Shown here piece after piece: positions 31,905 through 44,544 of a stretch of DNA of 64,000 nt. The notes under the pieces were generated by a model. It saw nothing but the letters and a program-made list of their open reading frames with translations. It was not told where the DNA came from and made no database searches. Source of the stretch: Gammaproteobacteria bacterium Ga0077554 (GTDB taxonomy: Bacteria > Pseudomonadota > Gammaproteobacteria > Ga0077554 > Ga007554); the NCBI GenBank assembly GCA_001464585.1, contig LNFF01000019.1, positions 1 through 64,000 of the forward strand, given 5' to 3'. The translations under genes were made by a program, and so were the position numbers. Every line of letters begins with the position of its first letter. Positions within the stretch are counted from its first letter, which is position 1.

Positions 31905-32129
31905 ATGAACTGGGATATTATTGAAGGAAACTGGAAACAATTTAAGGGCAATATGAAGGAGCGGTGGGGAAAACTCACTGACGATCATCTGGATACTATC
32001 GCTGGCAAACGTGACCAGCTAGCGGGCAAGATCCAAGAAATGTATGGCGTAAGTAAAGAGGAAGCTGAAAAGCAAATCAAGATATTTGAAGAGAGTGCCC
32101 AACAGAAGAGGCAGTTCAGGGATTCTTAG
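31905..32129 (+). CDS. CsbD-family stress protein, copy 1
   Basis: The 74-residue protein has the typical CsbD start MNWDIIEGNWKQFKGNMKER followed by WGKLTDDHLDTIAGKRDQLA and a helical, charged tail. CsbD proteins are small, abundant and induced by general stress (sigma B in Bacillus) or by phosphate limitation in some Proteobacteria; their biochemical role is unknown. The ribosome-binding site AAAGGAGG is nearly perfect. A closely similar paralogue lies at 47592-47792; this copy has an extra C-terminal QQKRQFRDS tail. Confidence 0.92.
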   Translation: MNWDIIEGNWKQFKGNMKERWGKLTDDHLDTIAGKRDQLAGKIQEMYGVSKEEAEKQIKIFEESAQQKRQFRDS

Positions 32130-32216
32130 TTGGAACAATTATTTATTCTGACATCATTAGCAATCACGACACGTTGGGCGGCGGGGTTATCTGTCATCCA
32201 CAAGAGGTTTAAAATT

Positions 32217-32666
32217 ATGGCAACTCTCCATGCTTATCTTAAGTTTCCTGGTAATGCTGAGAAAGCTTTAATGTTTTATCAACATATATTTGGTGGCGAA
32301 TTTTTGGCTGTCCTACGTTTTAAAGACAATCCAGATATAGCAGAAAAATTATCTGAACAGGGTAAAGAAAAAATCCTATTCATGGTGCTCACGATTGGTC
32401 ACGGTACAACGCTAATGGCAAGTGATGTACTCGAATCAGCAGGGCATCCACTCACGAGCGGGAATAATTACTATGTCTATGTTGGTGCTGATACTCATGA
32501 GGAAGGTGAGCGCATCTTCAATAAACTCTCTGAAGACGGTGAGGTCGAAACTCCATTCCAAAAAACGGATTGGGGTGCATTTTTTGGAGCCTTAAAGGAT
32601 AAATACGGAACACCCTGGATGATTAATTACCAAGAAGCTCTCGGTTCTCTCAAGAAGAAGCCATAG
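32217..32666 (+). CDS. VOC/PhnB-like (glyoxalase superfamily) protein
   Basis: A 149-residue protein of the PhnB/YjdN type: start MATLHAYLKFPGNAEKALMF, YQHIFGGEFLAVLRF, a central LMASDVLESAGHPLTSGNNY and the end WGAFFGALKDKYGTPWMINY. Members have two paired beta-alpha-beta-beta-beta modules; many lack a known reaction. I start at ATG 32217, with AGAGG upstream; an earlier in-frame TTG is not supported. Such VOC genes are frequent integron cassette cargo, which is of interest because the next gene ends in an attC-like site. Confidence 0.85.
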   Translation: MATLHAYLKFPGNAEKALMFYQHIFGGEFLAVLRFKDNPDIAEKLSEQGKEKILFMVLTIGHGTTLMASDVLESAGHPLTSGNNYYVYVGADTHEEGERIFNKLSEDGEVETPFQKTDWGAFFGALKDKYGTPWMINYQEALGSLKKKP

Positions 32667-32728
32667 CGAAATGAAAAAGAAGACATGGATCGTCAGATCG
32701 AGAGCTTGAAATTGCACACCAAACCAAC

Positions 32729-33321
32729 ATGAAAGATGAAACATATATCATTCTTCTTCGCGGTGTGACCCCAAGTGGCAAGAACAAGGTCCCGATGGCA
32801 CCGCTGCGCGCGGCTCTCACCAAAGGAGGACTGAAAGACGTGCAGGCGTATATTCAAAGTGGCAACGTCATCGCCGCATCTGAACTAACTCAAGCTGCGC
32901 TTGAGAGGCTTGTGCGTGAAGTCATTCGTAAGAGTTTTGGGGGAGATCTAGCCGTTGTGGCGAGAACTGCGAAGCAGTTTGCGCGCGTCGTAAAGCAGAA
33001 TCCATTCGCAGATGCCGATGGGCAGGGTTATACTCCTCTCTGCTTGCCACAGAACCTGGCAAGAAGCTATTGAGAGAGCTTGTATCCACCGACTTCTCGC
33101 CTGACCAAGTCAGGTATGTAAACAACACGATATACACGCTATATGCGACCAAGCACAGTGATTCCAAGTTCAACAACAACTTTTTCGAGCGCAAGCTCAA
33201 AGTCACAGCGACTACCAGAAATCTCAACACTATGCTCAAGCTCGTTGCTTTAGCCGCCGCCCAACAAGACGCTCCAGCCGACGGCTCTGTCGCCGCTTCG
33301 CGTCGCCAGAGACGCGGCTGA
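32729..33321 (+). pseudogene. DUF1697 protein gene, frameshifted
   Basis: The 5' part (from ATG 32729) encodes a normal DUF1697 N-terminus (YIILLRGVTPSGKNKVPMAP, LKDVQAYIQSGNVIA, then ADADGQGY). Near 33027-33032 the frame changes, and the first frame stops at 33071-33073. The downstream frame carries the remainder (LLATEPGKKLLRELVSTDFS, FERKLKVTATTRNLNTMLKL). One inserted or lost base therefore divides a full-length domain. The last codons of the second frame run into the attC-like site, as cassette genes often do. A sequencing error could also produce this picture. Confidence 0.75.
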
Positions 33322-33336
33322 GCTTCGTCGTTAGGG
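33259..33336 (+). repeat. attC-like integron cassette recombination site
   Basis: An imperfect 78-base palindrome lies at the 3' end of the DUF1697 gene. The outer boxes are GCCCAAC (fits RYYYAAC) at 33259-33265 and GTTAGGG (six of seven positions of GTTRRRY) at 33330-33336. Inner arms CCAGCCG and CGGCTG pair, and a second inner foldback CTCTG/CAGAG surrounds the centre. No integrase gene and no second site were found in the window. Confidence 0.6.
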
Positions 33337-33390: not shown

Positions 33391-33939
33391 ATGAAGTGGA
33401 AAAATTCGTTAGCTGCAATGGGACTGATAATGCTCAGTCTATTTGTCACCCCCACGGTCTCAGCCGATAGCAAGGCAGAGATCGACCCGAACGTGAATCA
33501 AACCTTGACGCAGTTCTATGCTCAGCATGCGAAAAATAAAGGCCTTGCGGAAAAAGCGGCTGGCATGCTTATCTTTCCACGTATTACTAAAGCTGGGTTG
33601 GGAATCGCTGGCGAGTATGGCGAGGGTGTTTTGCAAGTCAAGGACATGCCTGTTGACTACTATACTATCAGCTCTGCTTCGATCGGCCTTACCCTCGGTG
33701 TTGCAAGTCGTAGCCAAATCATCATGTTTATGACCCAAGAAGCGCTGGACAAATTCAAGAATAGCGACGGGTGGAAGATTGGCCTCGATGCTAATGTGGC
33801 TATCATATCAATGGGGGCAGGTGGAGAATATGATACTAAAACCCTCCAGGAACCTATCCTTGGCTTCGTGTTCGGTGAGAAGGGGCTGATAGGTGACCTG
33901 TCACTGGAAGGCTCCAAGATCACGAAGGTACAGAAGTAA
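33391..33939 (+). CDS. SYLF/Ysc84-domain lipid-binding protein, secreted
   Basis: The 182-residue protein has a Sec signal peptide (LAAMGLIMLSLFVTPTVSA) and a SYLF domain: AAGMLIFPRITKAGLGIAGE near residue 58, VDYYTISSASIGLTLGVASR, and the end VFGEKGLIGDLSLEGSKI. SYLF proteins bind phosphoinositides in eukaryotes; bacterial members are periplasmic or outer-membrane-associated and of unknown role. The ribosome-binding site is TGGAGG. It follows the attC-like site by about 55 bases, so it may lie just outside a former cassette. Confidence 0.85.
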   Translation: MKWKNSLAAMGLIMLSLFVTPTVSADSKAEIDPNVNQTLTQFYAQHAKNKGLAEKAAGMLIFPRITKAGLGIAGEYGEGVLQVKDMPVDYYTISSASIGLTLGVASRSQIIMFMTQEALDKFKNSDGWKIGLDANVAIISMGAGGEYDTKTLQEPILGFVFGEKGLIGDLSLEGSKITKVQK

Positions 33940-35574: not shown

Positions 35575-38500
35575 TCAATATTGAACAGGCGGCAATGCCA
35601 TAATTTTTACTTCGGCCGTGTGATCCTGACGGTCATCGATGAGCGGTATGATGTTATCTGTACATTCGATGTCATCTACTATCACGCGCATTGCATTGCT
35701 TCTCAGTGCATCATCGGACGCGGCTTGGGTTACGGTGATATGATACATCGTCTCGCGATAGCGGTAATGCAACTTGAACTCTGCCCACTCCGCAGGGAGG
35801 CATGGCGCAAAATGTAACTTGTCTACTTCCAGTCGGAGTCCGAGCAGAGATTCTACGATCAGGCGATACATCCAACCCGCCGAGCCGGTATACCAGCTCC
35901 AACCACCACGACCAGCATGCGGTGCGACTGCGTAGACATCGGCAGTGACTACGTAAGGCTCAACTTTATAAATCTCTGCATCCTCGGGCGATTTTGAATG
36001 ATTGATAGGATTGATCATGGTCAACAGTTCCCATGCCCGCTGGCTATCGCCCAGGGCGGCGAACGCCATGGTCGTCCAGATTGCAGCATGCGTGTATTGC
36101 CCACCATTTTCACGCACACCGGGGACGTATCCTTTGATGTAACCCGGATCCATGTCCGACGTATCAAACGGTGGATCCAGGAGTTGAATCAGTCCATGAT
36201 CATGCCGCACCAAGCGCGCATAGACGGCGCTCATGCCCTTGCGCGAGCGCTCTGCATCACCCGCACCAGAAAGTACTGACCAGCTTTGTGAGATCGAATC
36301 AATTTGGCATTCAGCATTAGCCGCCGACCCCAAGGGGGTGCCGTTATCAAAGTAAGCGCGACGATACCATGCGCCATCCCAGCCATTTTGTTCGATACGC
36401 TCACGCAGTTGCGCCGCTTCTTTTCGACAATCTTCGGCAAAAGATACATCATCTACACGTTGCGCCAATTCAGCGAAGCGCGTCAGCACTTCATACAAAA
36501 AGAACCCCAGCCAAATACTCTCGCCTTTGCCGTGCAGTCCTACTAAATTCATACCATCATTCCAATCGCCTGAACCGATCAGCGGCAAGCCATGCTCACC
36601 GAATCTGAGACCGTGGCGGATGGCTCTCACACAATGCTGATACACACTGGCGGTAACTGTGGAGTGTTGCGGCAGATCGTAATAAGAGTCGTCTTCCGCC
36701 CCAACAGCACGGCCCTCCAGGAAGTGGACAGATTCATTCAGCACGCCAGTATCACCGGTACAGAGCACATACCGACACGCTGCCAACGGCAACCACAGAT
36801 AATCGTCGGAGCAGCGGGTACGTACACCGCGGCTTGAGGGCGGATGCCACCAATGCTGCACATCACCTTCCAGAAATTGATGCGCTGCGCACAGCAGTAA
36901 TTGGTCGCGCACGCGTTGTGGTTCAGCATGAATCAGCGCCATCACGTCCTGTAACTGATCGCGGAAACCGAAAGCGCCACCTGATTGATAATAACCGCTG
37001 CGCGCCCACAGACGGCAGGCAAGCGTCTGATACACCAGCCAACCGTTGGTCAATACGTTAAGGGAGGCATCGGGCGTTTCCACTTGCACGGCGCCCAACG
37101 TACGTTTCCAGTAGCGCCACACTCCTTCAAGTTCAGTGTAGGCCGCAGCCGAGCCGCGAAAGCGTTTCACCAGCTTGCGCGCATCATCAATGCCTGATCT
37201 TCCGGCTTGGCCGAGCCGGAAGATAATCTCGCGCTCTTGCCCATCAGCCAAATCAAAATTTACTTGAATCGCAGCACAGGGATCCAATGCCGCGCCCACT
37301 TTACCCGAAAGCCGCGCCCGGGACATCGCTGCGGGCTTTTTTAGCGAGCCGTTACGGCCAATGAATTCAGTGCGGTCACCACTCAGCGTGCAATTAGGGT
37401 CATCCACATCGAAGAACGCAATTCGATCAGCGAATTCCGGATTATAAGGATTACGTGCGAACAGCGCACCACTCTCAGAATCGACTTCAGTGGTGACGTG
37501 CATAACAGATTTTGGCCGCAAATCGCCTAGCACCCACTCCACATAGCCCGTCGCGGAAAGACGGCGCGGCCGTCCGGAAACGTTACGTACTTTCAGTACC
37601 GAAAACTTGACTGCCGCATCCAGCGCCACATATACCCACAACTCGGAGCTAATGCCACCTTCACTATATTCAAACACGCTATAGCCGAAGCCGTGACGAC
37701 TAACGTAAGGATTCGCTCCGCGCGTGGGCAAGGGAGTGGGAGACCAGAAATAACCGCTCTCCTCATCCCGCAGATAAAACGCTTCACCACTGGCATCGGA
37801 TACCGGATCATTGTGCCAGGGGGTAAGGCGAAACTCATGCGCGTTTTCGCTCCAGGTATAAGCTAGCCCATTCTCAGAGATAACCGTACCAAAATGTGGA
37901 TTTGCCAATACATTTACCCATGGTGCGGGGGTCATATGCCCGGCGGTGGTAGTCATGACGTACTCGCGCCCATCGGTGGTGAATCCACCGATCCCATTGT
38001 GCAGAATGAGATCACGCGGCGGCTCGACGCTGGGTGAAAATTCCGGGCGGTGACGTCGCGTCGGCTGAAAGCGTGGCACGCGCATTCCCTTTGGACTCTG
38101 ACGATTGACCTGTTCTGCGAGCGTTCCGCGAGTATCGCTGAGAATAATGCGTGCCACTGACTGGAACAGAATGCGGTCTTCGCTGGACATCTGTTCTGCA
38201 AGACGCACGAAAATGCCCCCCGGTCGATCTATCACATGGGCTTCGACGCCTGCTGCAATCAAGCCGATAATCTGATCTTGAAGCAACTGCCGATAACCAG
38301 CCCGGTCTTCGTTCCAGATGACCAAATCCACTGCAAGCCCTTTTAAACGCCAATAAGCGTGCGCTTGCACCAGTTGTCGCACCAGTTCGATATTATCCGC
38401 ACTGCCAATCTGTAATAGCACAATGGGCAAGTCACCGGAAATAGCATAGCCCCATAAGCCGGATTGTCCACGGCGATTCTGTAACAGAATACCTGCGTCG

Positions 38501-41500
38501 GCCCGTAGCGAGACATTAGCATAGACCAAAGAGTTGGCCAGCCGCCCATAGAGTTGCGCATCGGCCTCGCTGGCATTGAGCTGACGCAATACGACTTGAG
38601 CATGGGTCCACGCGAGTTCGAAAACACGATTCGCCAAGCGTTGATCGTGGTATTTTTCGACCATACCTAAAACCGCCTCACGCGTCTCCCCCATACCAAT
38701 CACCATATCAAGAGTGACTGTCTGTTGGGGATCAAGCGTGATGGAATAGCGAATGGCGACAATCGGATCCAATACTGAACCCTGACTGCCAGAAAGCGCG
38801 CCGGAAGAAATTTTTACATCGCTCAATGCCTGTGGATTGGCGGCGGTGCGGCCACGGCCAATAAACTTCATCCGGTCGGTTTCATAGGAAATCTCATTGA
38901 CATCCGCGCCATGCGCCGCCATCAGATGAAACATCCATGGCGTGCTTTCATTGGCTGAACGGGGACGACGCGTGCAGAGTATGGCCTGCCGTTGTTCGAT
39001 AATTTCGGTTTGTACAAAAAGATTGCTGAAGGCGGTGTGCAGCGCATCGGCGGCGGGCACGGAAAGCACTACTTCCGTATAACTTGTAACAGTAATGGTA
39101 CGGCGTGTCCGCGCACGGTTAGTAAGATGCACACGGCGCAATTCAATATCATCTTCCGGCGACACTACAATTTCAGTATGTGTCTCAAAATTATAATCAC
39201 GGCGACGGAATTCGGCACGTCCTTCCGAAAAAATCGCTTCATAATGGTCTGGCTGTTTCAGTGTCGGCTGATGCGCGGTTGACCACACTTCTCCACTTTC
39301 AACATCGCATAAATAACAGAATGTCCCCCAATGATCGCACGTCGTGTCTTCACGCCAGCGGGTAACTGCGAGATCTTTCCAGCGACTGTAGCCACCTCCC
39401 GCATTCGTGACCATCACATGGTAACGGTCATTAGACAACAATTGCACTTCGGGGGTTAGCGTATTGGGGCTGTTGAAAACACGAATCGGCGCTTCTGCGC
39501 TACTGGAAGTCGGTCGAATATCAGAAAGTTGGGGCATGCGTGGGAAGAGTCCAGTAGCCCTTGGAATCCTTTCCTGAAGCAATAGCAAAGTTGATTGCAA
39601 CAAAGGGTCACATTCGAAGCGCCGCTGCATCGGTCTATCCAGGAGTAGATAGGCGAGAGAAAGCAAGCCCATTCCCTGGTGATGCGCCATGTAAGAACGC
39701 ACTATTGATCTCGATTCGCCGCGGCGTTGGCGCGAGGGGGTATAGTCAACGGCTTCATAAAAGCCGAATTTTCCTTCAAGCCCTTCGCTGGCGAGCCGTT
39801 GCAGATTAAGGCATGCAGCTTCCGGAGCCACCATCAAGGCCAGCATTGAAGAATACGGTGCAATGACCAGATCATCGGCGAGTCCGCGTTTAAGTCCCAG
39901 CCCCGGCACGCCAAAGGCGCGGTATTGGTAGTTGAGATGGATATCGACCAGATTGTATCCCGACTCCGACATACCCCACGCTACACCACGCTGCCGCCCA
40001 TATTCGACCTGACGCTCTACCGCTGCCTTATAGGTCTGATCGAGCAATGTATTATCAAAAGTCGGCATGACCAGAAGCGGCATCAAGTACTCGAACATCG
40101 AACCGCTCCACGACAAAAGAATCGGTTCGCCGCCCGCAACGGTGAGTTGTCGCCCTAAAGCAAACCAGCTTTCCTGTGGCACTTGCCCTTGTGCAATGGC
40201 AACAAAATTAGTCAACCTGGCTTCTGAAGCCAGTAGATCGTAGTAACTTATATCACGCCGCAACTCATTTACGTTGTATCCGATCGCCAGCAAACGGGAT
40301 GTTTTATCGTACAGGAAGTCATACTCCATATAAGCAAATTCACTTGCTTGCCGAGCCAGTTGTTCGACAGCCGCTATCCGCTCTGAGGCGCGGCGGCCAG
40401 CGGTAGCGACGCAGCGTTGCAGCTCTTGCAGCCATTCACGTTCCGTGGACGTCGGGGCGCCAGCAAGGAGCTGCTGCCCGATTACCGGAAGCACATCTGT
40501 TTCGAGTCTTGCCAATTCACGCAACGTGGGGATTGCACCAATACTGGGGTAGTCGCCGAGTCCACTGGGTGCAGCCGGCAGCGAAAGCCACGGCGCAAGA
40601 AACGTCAACTCATCAAGGGCTGCGCGGCATTGCCGGATCAGCGTCCGCGTCCACCAATTCGCATCGCTCTCAGTAGCCGTTTCAGAGCGTACTGCGCTAG
40701 CGTGATCCACGGTCGGGTGGTGCGCGGAACCCTCATCGACTTCCTTGTAGATTCCGTTTTGGCTACGGCTAAGTTTAAGATCGGTCTCCGCCACAACTGA
40801 GCTTTCTTCTTCTCTGGCTCCTCCTCTGGCCCACATCCGCTCGACGTTTTTTTGAGGCGTCATGAGGACAGTATCCAGGCTGTCGACAAATTCCGCCGCA
40901 CGTCTTGCCAACAGGTCAAGACACTGCCACGCTTGCACCAGCGTGCTTGGCCGGGAAGCGCATGCGGCCGCAAAATCCGCGTTAAATTGTGCAAGTGAAG
41001 CCGGCGATGAGGTGCTTGCCGCAGCGTCGACCAGAATGGCTAGCGTGTCGTGCAGCCCATCAAATACTCGCGCCCCCAGGATCGGGGCATCGGGAAGCGC
41101 GAGCAGACCGGGCCGCAAGGTCAACAGATGGCCCGCGAGATTTCCGCTGTCCACCGTCGAAACATAGATAGGGTGCAGTGGTTTCAGCGATAAGGTGTCG
41201 TACCAATTGTAGAAATGGCCACGGTGACGTTCCAAACTCTGCATGGTGCGCAGGGAGTTTGCCGTGCGCTCGATGAATTGTCCGGCCGGAATGTAACCGA
41301 AATCGTAGGCAGTTAAATTAGCCAGTAGTGACATGCCTATATTAGTGGGCGAGGTGCGATGAGCCACTGAAGCGCCACGATACTCCTGATAGTTATCCGG
41401 CGGTAGCCAATGATCTTCCGGGCCGACAAAGGTCTCGAAAAAGGCCCATGTTTTGCGCGAAAGCTTGCGCAGAAAAACGATCTGCTCAAGTGTCAACCGC

Positions 41501-44500
41501 GCTTCGCGGTGCGTTAGCGGTTGGCTGAGCCACCACGCAAGCACGGGTGAAGCCAACCACAGCAGCAGAACAGGCGCCGCTACGGTGAGTACTGCGGGCT
41601 TGAACAGCAAGAGATATATCGTTGTGGCAACGGTGATCAGTGGCGCGATCCACATCGCGCGCAAAGCAGCGGTGAAATCCGTGCGGCTATTACGTGCCGC
41701 TTCGCCCGAAGGAGTCCATTCGAGCAGCCGTCGGTGCGTAAACAACATGCGCCACGCCGTGCGCACGATCGCATCCAGGCTGAAGTAGGCCTCATAGGGC
41801 AGGCAGGCCAGGGTAAAGGCCGCCTGTGCCAAGCGATGCATCGCCGCATCGCGTGTGGCAGCAAGATGCTGCCGGAACAGCACTTCGCGCGGCTTGTGAA
41901 ATATTTCCAGAACAGAGGCGATCAGGGGCGGAATCAATATTATGCCGATCACCAACACCGTCCAAACCCAGGACGATTCAAGCAGTGTCCAACCCAGCAG
42001 CAACAGCAGCGTCAATGCCATCGGCACAAGACTGCGCCGCAGGTTGTCGAACAGTTTCCATTGCGATAGCCACGATAGCGGGTTCTTCTGCCGTCGTCCA
42101 CTGGAGCCGGGAACACGCGGTAGCAGCCACCCAGCCAATTGCCAATCACCACGTATCCAGCGATGACGGCGGCTCACATCGGTACTGTAATGCGCAGGAT
42201 AATCCTCATACAAATGCACATCGCTCAATAGGCCTGCGCGCGCATAACATCCTTCCAATAAATCATGGCTAAGAATCCGGTTTTCGGGAAATCGTTCATT
42301 CAATACCTGCTCGAAGGTATCCACTTCATAGATTCCCTTGCCAATAAACGAACCTTCTCCAAAAACATCTTGATATACGTCCGAAATGACACGGGTATAA
42401 GGATCAATACCAGCATCAAAACCATGCAGTTGCGCATACAGCGAACGATTGGCTCCTTTCAGGCTGGCGCTAACACGCGGTTGAAGAATCCCGTAGCCCT
42501 CGCAGACTCGTTTTTTCTTTGCGTCGTAACGCGCCCGATTGAGGGGATGCGCCATAGCGCCTACCAATTCCCACGCAACATCACGTGGGAGCTGTGTATC
42601 AGTGTCTAACGTCAGGACATATTTCACCCCAATTAGACGGCTGATATCCCCCACAATGTGTGAAAACCGTTTTCCTGCCTCAGCACGTGTTTCACCACGC
42701 AGCAATGCATTCAAATCGGAAAGTTTGCCACGTTTGCGCTCATACCCCATCCACATCCGCTCTTGGGGATTCCAGCGGCGTGGACGGTGAAAAAGAAAGA
42801 AAATATCGTTATTTTTAGCGCTATATTTTTCATTCAATGCTTCGATGCGCATCTGGGCCAACCGTATCAACGGCTCATCTTCACCCAAAGTTTCTACATG
42901 CGCATCCCGAAAGTCTGTCAATAAGCCAAAATACAGATTATCGTCCCGATTCGCCAGGAAGCGGACTTCCAGGGCTTCGATCAGCTCGTCAATATTCGGT
43001 AACGAAGTGAGCATTGTCGGCACCACAACTAGCGTCTGCGACTGCGCAGGGATGCCCTTCGAGAAATCCATACGTGGCAAACGATGCGGGCGCACCAGTA
43101 ATGTCGTCAACCAGTTCACCAAAGCCAGCCCCAACTGACTGCTGGACAGCAAGGCGAGTATGCTGATCAGCACCAGCATCTCATACGCAACTCCTTGCGC
43201 CTGCATTATTGCCCATAGGCTCGCGCTAAATAATAATGTGAGTAATGTAATCGCGCCAAGATACAACCCCAATGTGTACCCCGAACTTATTTTTGCGAGA
43301 GTTACAGAAACTGAAAAATGTACTTTCGCCCGTCTTTGCAGGGCGTGCAATCCACGGTCTATTAAATAGAAACCCACATGTGTCGTCCGTTCCCCACTAT
43401 TCTGCTCTGCAGCCTGAGCCACCTGAGCAAGCTGGATGGCATTGCGTGCCACTTCAACTTCCGAAAAAGAACTCGTCTTCGCAATCCTTTCAATCACATG
43501 GCGATAGCGATCACGGGTAGCAAAATCCATTTCACCATAAACTCCCGCTGGATCCTCGCGCAGGGTTTTTTCCACGATACTCATGGTTTCGACAAACTCA
43601 CGCCAATCCATATTTCCCAAAAAACGCAAACTACCAATGCTGTTACTAATAGACACCTGGTCAGCAGCCTGTTGCTGATTACCAGATCGCACTAACTGCT
43701 CAATGGTCAAACCCTGTTCGGCAAGCACTTGTTCAACCCAAATGAGAGGCAATGCTAATGCCAGACTTTGTCCGTGCAAACGACGGGTAAACTCTGACAC
43801 GAAAGGAATCGTCATCGGTGGGTGAGATCGGGCCATATCAGCAACCACCAGCACCAGGCTTTTCGGGTCTTTCTCCGCAACCACCGTCATCTGCTCGACC
43901 CATCCCGTGGCAAGATCGCGATCTATCCTGCCAGCCGCAATGCGCACAGCGACACGTCGTAAATTTTCAATCAACGCCAGCCGCAGCATGATGGGAATGG
44001 CCCATAATTCACCCAATTTAAGCACATTAACTGTCTGGTAGGCCGCAACGAAACGACTCAGGCTTTCCGGATCAACTCGCCCATCACCATGCGATATTAT
44101 TTCCAGCGCAATATCATATACCCGTGGCAATCCCGCCGAAGATCCGCTCGACAAGCGCGGCAATTCCCGGCTATACCCGGGGGGCAAATGGCGCTTGGCC
44201 GTACGAATTTGTTCTTCTATTAAATAAAAATTATCCAGCAACCATTCGCTGGCGGGAGTAATCTGCTGATTCGCTTTAACCGCAATCGTAAGACGGTCAC
44301 AGACGCCCACCAAAATCTCTTCATTTTCCGCCAAACGTGCCAGAAGCTGATCCTGGGATCGTATCTGGGTCAACTTATGGCCCGCCGCGAGGCGCTTGGC
44401 ATGCTGTTCTAACTGATCGGCACTGAATAATTCGGAACGGAGGGGGGGTTCATCAAAAGAATGTTTAATGGGAATGCCGCTATCGCGCAAATGCATTCTC

Positions 44501-44544
44501 AATTGATGTAAATATCGGAAAAAACGAATATCGCCAGTTTTCAT
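35575..44544 (-). CDS. ndvB: cyclic beta-1,2-glucan synthase homologue (NdvB/Cgs-type, GT84 plus GH94)
   Basis: This 2989-residue inner-membrane enzyme is slightly longer than rhizobial NdvB and Brucella Cgs. Two helices (about residues 420-485) precede the GT84 glycosyltransferase domain (about 500-800) with YVLTLDTDTQLPRD near residue 646 and a QxxRW-like RHRWIRGDWQL. Two helix pairs follow (about 838-880 and 960-1003). Then comes a glycoamylase-like domain (about 1400-1620, SYYDLLASEARL, FGVPGLGLKRGLADD). Two carbohydrate-binding beta-sandwich modules start near 1708 and 2198. A C-terminal GH94 phosphorylase domain has RCSDDYLWLPLAA (near 2578) and GSGDWNDGMNLVG (near 2658). Known homologues build, size and cyclise beta-1,2-glucan using UDP-glucose; the rings accumulate in the periplasm during low-osmolarity growth. 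The exporter NdvA is not in the window. It is the largest gene here and no frameshift is visible. Confidence 0.92.
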   Translation of the reverse strand: MKTGDIRFFRYLHQLRMHLRDSGIPIKHSFDEPPLRSELFSADQLEQHAKRLAAGHKLTQIRSQDQLLARLAENEEILVGVCDRLTIAVKANQQITPASEWLLDNFYLIEEQIRTAKRHLPPGYSRELPRLSSGSSAGLPRVYDIALEIISHGDGRVDPESLSRFVAAYQTVNVLKLGELWAIPIMLRLALIENLRRVAVRIAAGRIDRDLATGWVEQMTVVAEKDPKSLVLVVADMARSHPPMTIPFVSEFTRRLHGQSLALALPLIWVEQVLAEQGLTIEQLVRSGNQQQAADQVSISNSIGSLRFLGNMDWREFVETMSIVEKTLREDPAGVYGEMDFATRDRYRHVIERIAKTSSFSEVEVARNAIQLAQVAQAAEQNSGERTTHVGFYLIDRGLHALQRRAKVHFSVSVTLAKISSGYTLGLYLGAITLLTLLFSASLWAIMQAQGVAYEMLVLISILALLSSSQLGLALVNWLTTLLVRPHRLPRMDFSKGIPAQSQTLVVVPTMLTSLPNIDELIEALEVRFLANRDDNLYFGLLTDFRDAHVETLGEDEPLIRLAQMRIEALNEKYSAKNNDIFFLFHRPRRWNPQERMWMGYERKRGKLSDLNALLRGETRAEAGKRFSHIVGDISRLIGVKYVLTLDTDTQLPRDVAWELVGAMAHPLNRARYDAKKKRVCEGYGILQPRVSASLKGANRSLYAQLHGFDAGIDPYTRVISDVYQDVFGEGSFIGKGIYEVDTFEQVLNERFPENRILSHDLLEGCYARAGLLSDVHLYEDYPAHYSTDVSRRHRWIRGDWQLAGWLLPRVPGSSGRRQKNPLSWLSQWKLFDNLRRSLVPMALTLLLLLGWTLLESSWVWTVLVIGIILIPPLIASVLEIFHKPREVLFRQHLAATRDAAMHRLAQAAFTLACLPYEAYFSLDAIVRTAWRMLFTHRRLLEWTPSGEAARNSRTDFTAALRAMWIAPLITVATTIYLLLFKPAVLTVAAPVLLLWLASPVLAWWLSQPLTHREARLTLEQIVFLRKLSRKTWAFFETFVGPEDHWLPPDNYQEYRGASVAHRTSPTNIGMSLLANLTAYDFGYIPAGQFIERTANSLRTMQSLERHRGHFYNWYDTLSLKPLHPIYVSTVDSGNLAGHLLTLRPGLLALPDAPILGARVFDGLHDTLAILVDAAASTSSPASLAQFNADFAAACASRPSTLVQAWQCLDLLARRAAEFVDSLDTVLMTPQKNVERMWARGGAREEESSVVAETDLKLSRSQNGIYKEVDEGSAHHPTVDHASAVRSETATESDANWWTRTLIRQCRAALDELTFLAPWLSLPAAPSGLGDYPSIGAIPTLRELARLETDVLPVIGQQLLAGAPTSTEREWLQELQRCVATAGRRASERIAAVEQLARQASEFAYMEYDFLYDKTSRLLAIGYNVNELRRDISYYDLLASEARLTNFVAIAQGQVPQESWFALGRQLTVAGGEPILLSWSGSMFEYLMPLLVMPTFDNTLLDQTYKAAVERQVEYGRQRGVAWGMSESGYNLVDIHLNYQYRAFGVPGLGLKRGLADDLVIAPYSSMLALMVAPEAACLNLQRLASEGLEGKFGFYEAVDYTPSRQRRGESRSIVRSYMAHHQGMGLLSLAYLLLDRPMQRRFECDPLLQSTLLLLQERIPRATGLFPRMPQLSDIRPTSSSAEAPIRVFNSPNTLTPEVQLLSNDRYHVMVTNAGGGYSRWKDLAVTRWREDTTCDHWGTFCYLCDVESGEVWSTAHQPTLKQPDHYEAIFSEGRAEFRRRDYNFETHTEIVVSPEDDIELRRVHLTNRARTRRTITVTSYTEVVLSVPAADALHTAFSNLFVQTEIIEQRQAILCTRRPRSANESTPWMFHLMAAHGADVNEISYETDRMKFIGRGRTAANPQALSDVKISSGALSGSQGSVLDPIVAIRYSITLDPQQTVTLDMVIGMGETREAVLGMVEKYHDQRLANRVFELAWTHAQVVLRQLNASEADAQLYGRLANSLVYANVSLRADAGILLQNRRGQSGLWGYAISGDLPIVLLQIGSADNIELVRQLVQAHAYWRLKGLAVDLVIWNEDRAGYRQLLQDQIIGLIAAGVEAHVIDRPGGIFVRLAEQMSSEDRILFQSVARIILSDTRGTLAEQVNRQSPKGMRVPRFQPTRRHRPEFSPSVEPPRDLILHNGIGGFTTDGREYVMTTTAGHMTPAPWVNVLANPHFGTVISENGLAYTWSENAHEFRLTPWHNDPVSDASGEAFYLRDEESGYFWSPTPLPTRGANPYVSRHGFGYSVFEYSEGGISSELWVYVALDAAVKFSVLKVRNVSGRPRRLSATGYVEWVLGDLRPKSVMHVTTEVDSESGALFARNPYNPEFADRIAFFDVDDPNCTLSGDRTEFIGRNGSLKKPAAMSRARLSGKVGAALDPCAAIQVNFDLADGQEREIIFRLGQAGRSGIDDARKLVKRFRGSAAAYTELEGVWRYWKRTLGAVQVETPDASLNVLTNGWLVYQTLACRLWARSGYYQSGGAFGFRDQLQDVMALIHAEPQRVRDQLLLCAAHQFLEGDVQHWWHPPSSRGVRTRCSDDYLWLPLAACRYVLCTGDTGVLNESVHFLEGRAVGAEDDSYYDLPQHSTVTASVYQHCVRAIRHGLRFGEHGLPLIGSGDWNDGMNLVGLHGKGESIWLGFFLYEVLTRFAELAQRVDDVSFAEDCRKEAAQLRERIEQNGWDGAWYRRAYFDNGTPLGSAANAECQIDSISQSWSVLSGAGDAERSRKGMSAVYARLVRHDHGLIQLLDPPFDTSDMDPGYIKGYVPGVRENGGQYTHAAIWTTMAFAALGDSQRAWELLTMINPINHSKSPEDAEIYKVEPYVVTADVYAVAPHAGRGGWSWYTGSAGWMYRLIVESLLGLRLEVDKLHFAPCLPAEWAEFKLHYRYRETMYHITVTQAASDDALRSNAMRVIVDDIECTDNIIPLIDDRQDHTAEVKIMALPPVQY

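Follow-up and report, generated by a model that had tools for sequence, protein, structure and literature searches.

How does an integron gene cassette come to lie in a stretch of chromosome that has no integron? This question is raised by an imperfect palindrome of 78 bases at positions 33259–33336 (+ strand) of the 64,000-nt stretch of DNA analysed here as a whole (the window). The initial annotation had described this palindrome, with its outer boxes GCCCAAC and GTTAGGG and its internal arms, as the attC-like end of a possible stranded cassette, and the palindrome is present as described. The R'' box (GCCCAAC) occupies 33259–33265 and the R' box (GTTAGGG) 33330–33336, while the arms L'' (about 33271–33284) and L' (about 33313–33323) read GCTCCAGCCGACGG and CGCGGCTGAGC, respectively.

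The attC-like layout was assessed with a covariance model built from 27 aligned attC sites, taken from plasmid integrons and from arrays of other genomes, the site at 33259–33336 being left out. Searching the 64-kb window with filters off, we obtained 50.3 bits for this site (E 6e-11) and 11.6 bits (E about 1) for the second-best place; the E-values are rough owing to a short calibration, but the gap between the scores is large. Likewise, a combined motif and folding scan for RYYYAAC/GTTRRRY boxes with paired arms returned this site as the sole place in the window, and zero places in three mononucleotide-shuffled windows. Folded as single-stranded DNA, the bottom strand of the inserted form reaches −25.4 kcal/mol (z −3.9 versus dinucleotide shuffles, compared with z −3.0 for the top strand). 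Extrahelical bases in the folded bottom strand are the means by which attC sites are recognised, and the bottom-strand arm of our site displays one unpaired T and one unpaired G. A BLAST search against 72,556 plasmids matched two records, with 76–78% identity over about 75 bases: one is the attC behind aac(3)-Id, adjoining intI1, the other the attC in front of aadA9, adjoining an integron integrase. Both share the 78-base length of the window site; however, they go with other cargo and belong to arrays beside intI, whereas the window attC stands alone.

Hairpins are common at gene ends, and the palindrome could in principle be a chance hairpin or a transcription terminator. Yet it has no T tract and was not called by the terminator scan (promoter and terminator scans alike gave little above shuffled sequence), it obtains its E-value of 6e-11 from an attC model trained without it, it resembles the attC of plasmid integrons, and the left end of the segment carries an exact partner, GTTGGGC. 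The chance-hairpin or terminator reading can be given next to no weight. A search of Rfam gave no match. The 78-base palindrome is a genuine attC site.

The limits of the cassette follow from the chemistry of recombination. The IntI cut falls between G and TT of R' (PMC12901181), so that the first bases of a cassette are TTRRRY and are expected to be complementary to R''. From 31835 to the attC there is a single GTTRRRY on the + strand, GTTGGGC at 32173–32179 (+), which is the exact reverse complement of R'' and one of two copies of GTTGGGC on this strand of the window. With the crossover between 32173 and 32174, the cassette extends over 32174–33330 (+) and comprises, in 1157 bp, two genes followed by attC, bounded by matching core sites; the open reading frames and attC lie on the same strand, the second frame ending within attC. 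The cassette proposed earlier is thereby upheld, although it begins at this core site, which ends 37 bases before the VOC start codon, and not at the start codon itself (32217). Taken alone, the GTTGGGC match is modest evidence for the boundary, because about 8% of random 7-mers find an exact partner in the 1.2 kb upstream of them. An exact left partner also accompanies most of the other lone attC sites in this genome and its genus, including in this genome the cassettes in L107, L108 and L109 and the first of L110. The boundary rule is further supported by L108, where the block of homology in common with a sister genus sets in precisely at the left core site that was predicted.

The R' box had been noted as deviating from consensus at one position. 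The deviation is real: GCCCAAC fits RYYYAAC, while GTTAGGG fits GTTRRRY at 6 of 7 positions. It is not a flaw, however, since target DNA supplies the six bases that follow the crossover, and an odd last base is therefore expected. The 3' part of R', TTAGGG (33331–33336, +), would be target-derived after insertion, as indicated by TTGGGC at the left end together with the G/TT crossover of IntI. In the circular form the box becomes GTTGGGC, which fits at 7 of 7 positions, the ends are perfectly complementary, the predicted fold improves from −25.4 to −30.3 kcal/mol, and the bottom strand is more stable than the top one.

The first gene of the cassette (32217–32666, +) encodes a VOC / 3-demethylubiquinone-9 3-methyltransferase-like protein of 149 aa (Pfam PF06983, 34.6 bits; PF00903, 31 bits). 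No match at E <= 1e-20 was obtained in the other genomes of the family that were searched, and 369 genomes of the class yielded five distant relatives at this threshold. The best of them (L198; 38% identity over 140 residues) is encoded by a cassette gene between two attC sites of an array, in keeping with the earlier statement that VOC proteins are cassette cargo. The second gene is a DUF1697 gene split by a frameshift. Its N-terminal part (32729–33073, +) matches PF08002 at 101.8 bits (profile positions 3–97 of 137) and residues 3–96 of a full-length DUF1697 protein; the family match runs to residue about 98, and the frame changes near 33010–33040. The remainder lies in the other frame (33031–33321, +), and its product shows a weak but collinear match to residues 102–174 of the same full-length protein (23% identity, E 0.068). 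Thus the observation that the DUF1697 gene ends inside the palindrome applies to the shifted frame, which ends at 33321, and not to the frame matching DUF1697, which stops at 33073. The frameshift itself, placed near 33030 by the initial annotation, is borne out, but loss of selection on the cassette need not follow from it, given a full-length integrase elsewhere in the genome; with a single assembly to go by, the frameshift may be biological or an assembly error. Among plasmids, DUF1697 has distant homologues only, mostly in Bacillota and archaea, and a scan across genomes found one distant match, in a Frankiaceae MAG, at a locus from which attC is absent.

The two genes differ in GC content (0.41 for VOC, 0.50 for DUF1697), and the nearest VOC cassette gene, that of L198, carries its own attC directly behind it. 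The segment might therefore represent two cassettes that became fused, either before or after insertion, when the first attC was lost, which would be a variant of the explanation preferred below. However, neither a GTTRRRY nor an attC remnant is found between VOC and DUF1697, and pairs of genes within one cassette are known in this genome (L108, L109), so that we regard the fusion as possible but doubtful.

On the left, or target, side the cassette is flanked by a CsbD-like gene (31905–32129, +; Pfam CsbD, 71 bits) and on the right by a Ysc84 gene (33391–33939, +; Pfam PF04366, 44 bits). A comparison with relatives had been suggested earlier, and in 55 related genomes nothing of the 2 kb around the cassette was found except the flanking genes and attC fragments. 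Two genomes of the same family have a Ysc84 gene with 77% identity to this one; in both, neither csbD nor the cassette lies beside it and similarity stops about 15 bases upstream of the ysc84 start codon. A DNA search of the 55 relatives and a protein search with Ysc84 found csbD and ysc84 adjacent in no genome, the genes being present in a few relatives. Further downstream in the window (35575–44544), an ORF of 2989 aa appears by eye to resemble a cyclic beta-glucan synthase type protein.

The VOC-DUF1697-attC cassette is a SALIN, a term defined in PMC12690207, and its circle was most probably inserted by IntI acting in trans at a secondary (attG-like), non-integron chromosomal site. The locus has a single attC with neither an integrase nor another attC adjacent, and by the attI search of the genome and the attC model its target is neither attI nor attC. 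The cassette would have been excised as a circle with the expected junction ...TTCGTCGTTGGGCGGCGG. The bottom strand of its attC would then form a hairpin with two extrahelical bases, and an IntI in trans, the genome's own or another, would join the attC core G/TT to a chromosomal G/TT between the CsbD and Ysc84 genes (...ATCACGACACG/TTAGGG...), the uninterrupted target being expected as ...GCAATCACGACACG/TTAGGGTGGATATAC... The product would be flanked by GTTGGGC, the cassette's own start, and by GTTAGGG, made of the G of attC and the TTAGGG of the target. The cassette and csbD point the same way, so that transcription from the csbD promoter may reach the VOC gene. We infer the insertion event, the identity of the acting integrase and the expression of the cargo, and the empty target site likewise, since no genome searched has csbD next to ysc84; that IntI can excise and integrate this cassette is a prediction.

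Alternatively, an integron array (CALIN) could once have stood at this very place, the cassette being what is left of it after deletion of integrase, attI and other cassettes. Elsewhere in the genome, attI copies without full intI (on contigs C15, C23, C16 and C32) imply that decayed or duplicated platforms exist. At the cassette, however, and on the whole 109-kb contig, the genome search with attI found no attI similarity and the attC model no second attC, the integrase lies on another contig, and at the left end an exact core site abuts unrelated DNA. As no attI, intI or further cassettes remain, a decayed array is less likely than insertion, and we consider it improbable. Among known systems, one close to this case is the insertion of cassettes at attG sites, said to have been shown experimentally in E. 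coli by Loot et al. 2024 (Nat Microbiol 9:228; cited in PMC12901181 and PMC12444791); the window cassette is similarly joined to a chromosomal G/TT that is neither attI nor attC, but it is a natural case, with an empty site that is deduced. Recombination of IntI1 at secondary sites with GTT motifs has been reported as well (PMC10127599).

Searching the rest of the genome for intI and other attC sites, as had been advised, was productive. Contig C21 encodes an integron integrase that is intact, with 341 aa and a score of 492 bits against a cut-off of 265; it is accompanied by attI and by the beginning of the first cassette, where the contig ends; intI is present in 7 of the 7 family members sampled. 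The earlier remark that the window has no integrase is thus correct for the vicinity and does not extend to the genome, and "stranded" describes the position of the cassette without implying that its integron system has vanished. The attC model returned eleven sites in this genome, few of them clustered, and about eight places other than the window site bear attC. Cassettes away from intI are found at C6:255517 (L108), C25:89173 (L109), C6:49245 (L106), C1:20127 (L107), C15:64875 and 65313 (L110) and C23:7472 (L105), all in this genome (G000). Several lone cassettes (L108, L109) carry small gene pairs that are putatively toxin-antitoxin-like, to judge from resemblance. Visual inspection places L108 behind ftsH, L110 behind topA and L109 just behind an apparent tRNA end. 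In another family member (G006), nearly all attC sites belong to one long array, whereas those of this genus are scattered over many contigs; contig counts differ and the spread may partly be due to assembly. The window site and several other attC sites lie well inside contigs.

A sister genus has a lone attC (L023, G003:C45:51477-51554) that is 86% identical to the window attC; it lies elsewhere, its R' box is degenerate (GATAGAG), and its cassette is another, shorter one. We also observed a short element of about 90–150 bp, bounded by the inverted ends CTGTAGAAAAAC...GTTTTTCTACAG and located at attC R' boxes (L110:4930-5031, and L112, L113, L114, L116 and L123 in G001, a genome with 19 copies of its ends); it looks like a MITE-like element targeting attC. 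The right junction GTTGAG[GC]CTGTAGAAAAAC, seen at other lone cassettes, was considered as a shared target and rejected, as it is the end of this inverted-repeat element against attC; the junction is absent from the window site.

The attI copies deserve separate mention. Four copies of the attI region without full intI, 77–100% identical to the attI beside intI, are present in this genome, at C15:64074-64165 (L110, L236), C23:5451-5540 (L105, L238), C16:16952-17017 (L233) and C32:52226-52279 (L239). Downstream of the copies on C15 and C23 come attC cassettes, while those on C16 and C32 are partial, the C16 copy ending with its contig. A short stretch of the 5' end of intI is part of the C23 and C16 copies, a feature compatible both with duplicated, decayed platforms and with separate docking sites. 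Similar copies occur in two relatives, G001 (C26, C79, C41, C5) and G003 (C29). In a brief literature search we found no published description of four attI copies without full intI in one genome, and several such copies in the same genome are a more unusual observation than a SALIN. A tentative reading, which we hold to be less than even in likelihood, is a dispersed integron: the one integrase of the genus would serve several chromosomal docking sites, with cassettes stockpiled genome-wide and not in one array. Such docking sites would comprise attI copies that retain no more than a short 5' stretch of intI and attG-type sites devoid of attI, like that of the window.

SALINs have already been described, and the window cassette is a new, well-delimited example. 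Like the 115 orphan cassettes scattered over 41 Shewanella genomes (PMC9229058), it has one attC with a cassette and no integrase nearby. Nothing essential sets it apart from described SALINs; here its two ends and its cargo are resolved, and the genome has an intact integrase elsewhere. Integron activity is known to leave lone cassettes outside integrons, although few such outcomes are documented: laboratory work has demonstrated insertion outside integrons, and genome surveys have tallied lone attC sites. Cases with both junctions, the cargo and a co-resident intact integrase can help to show where in a chromosome insertion occurs in nature and whether cassettes are expressed at such sites. 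This genus offers several such cases together, and the genome, with its intact integrase and further stray cassettes, makes a good natural case.
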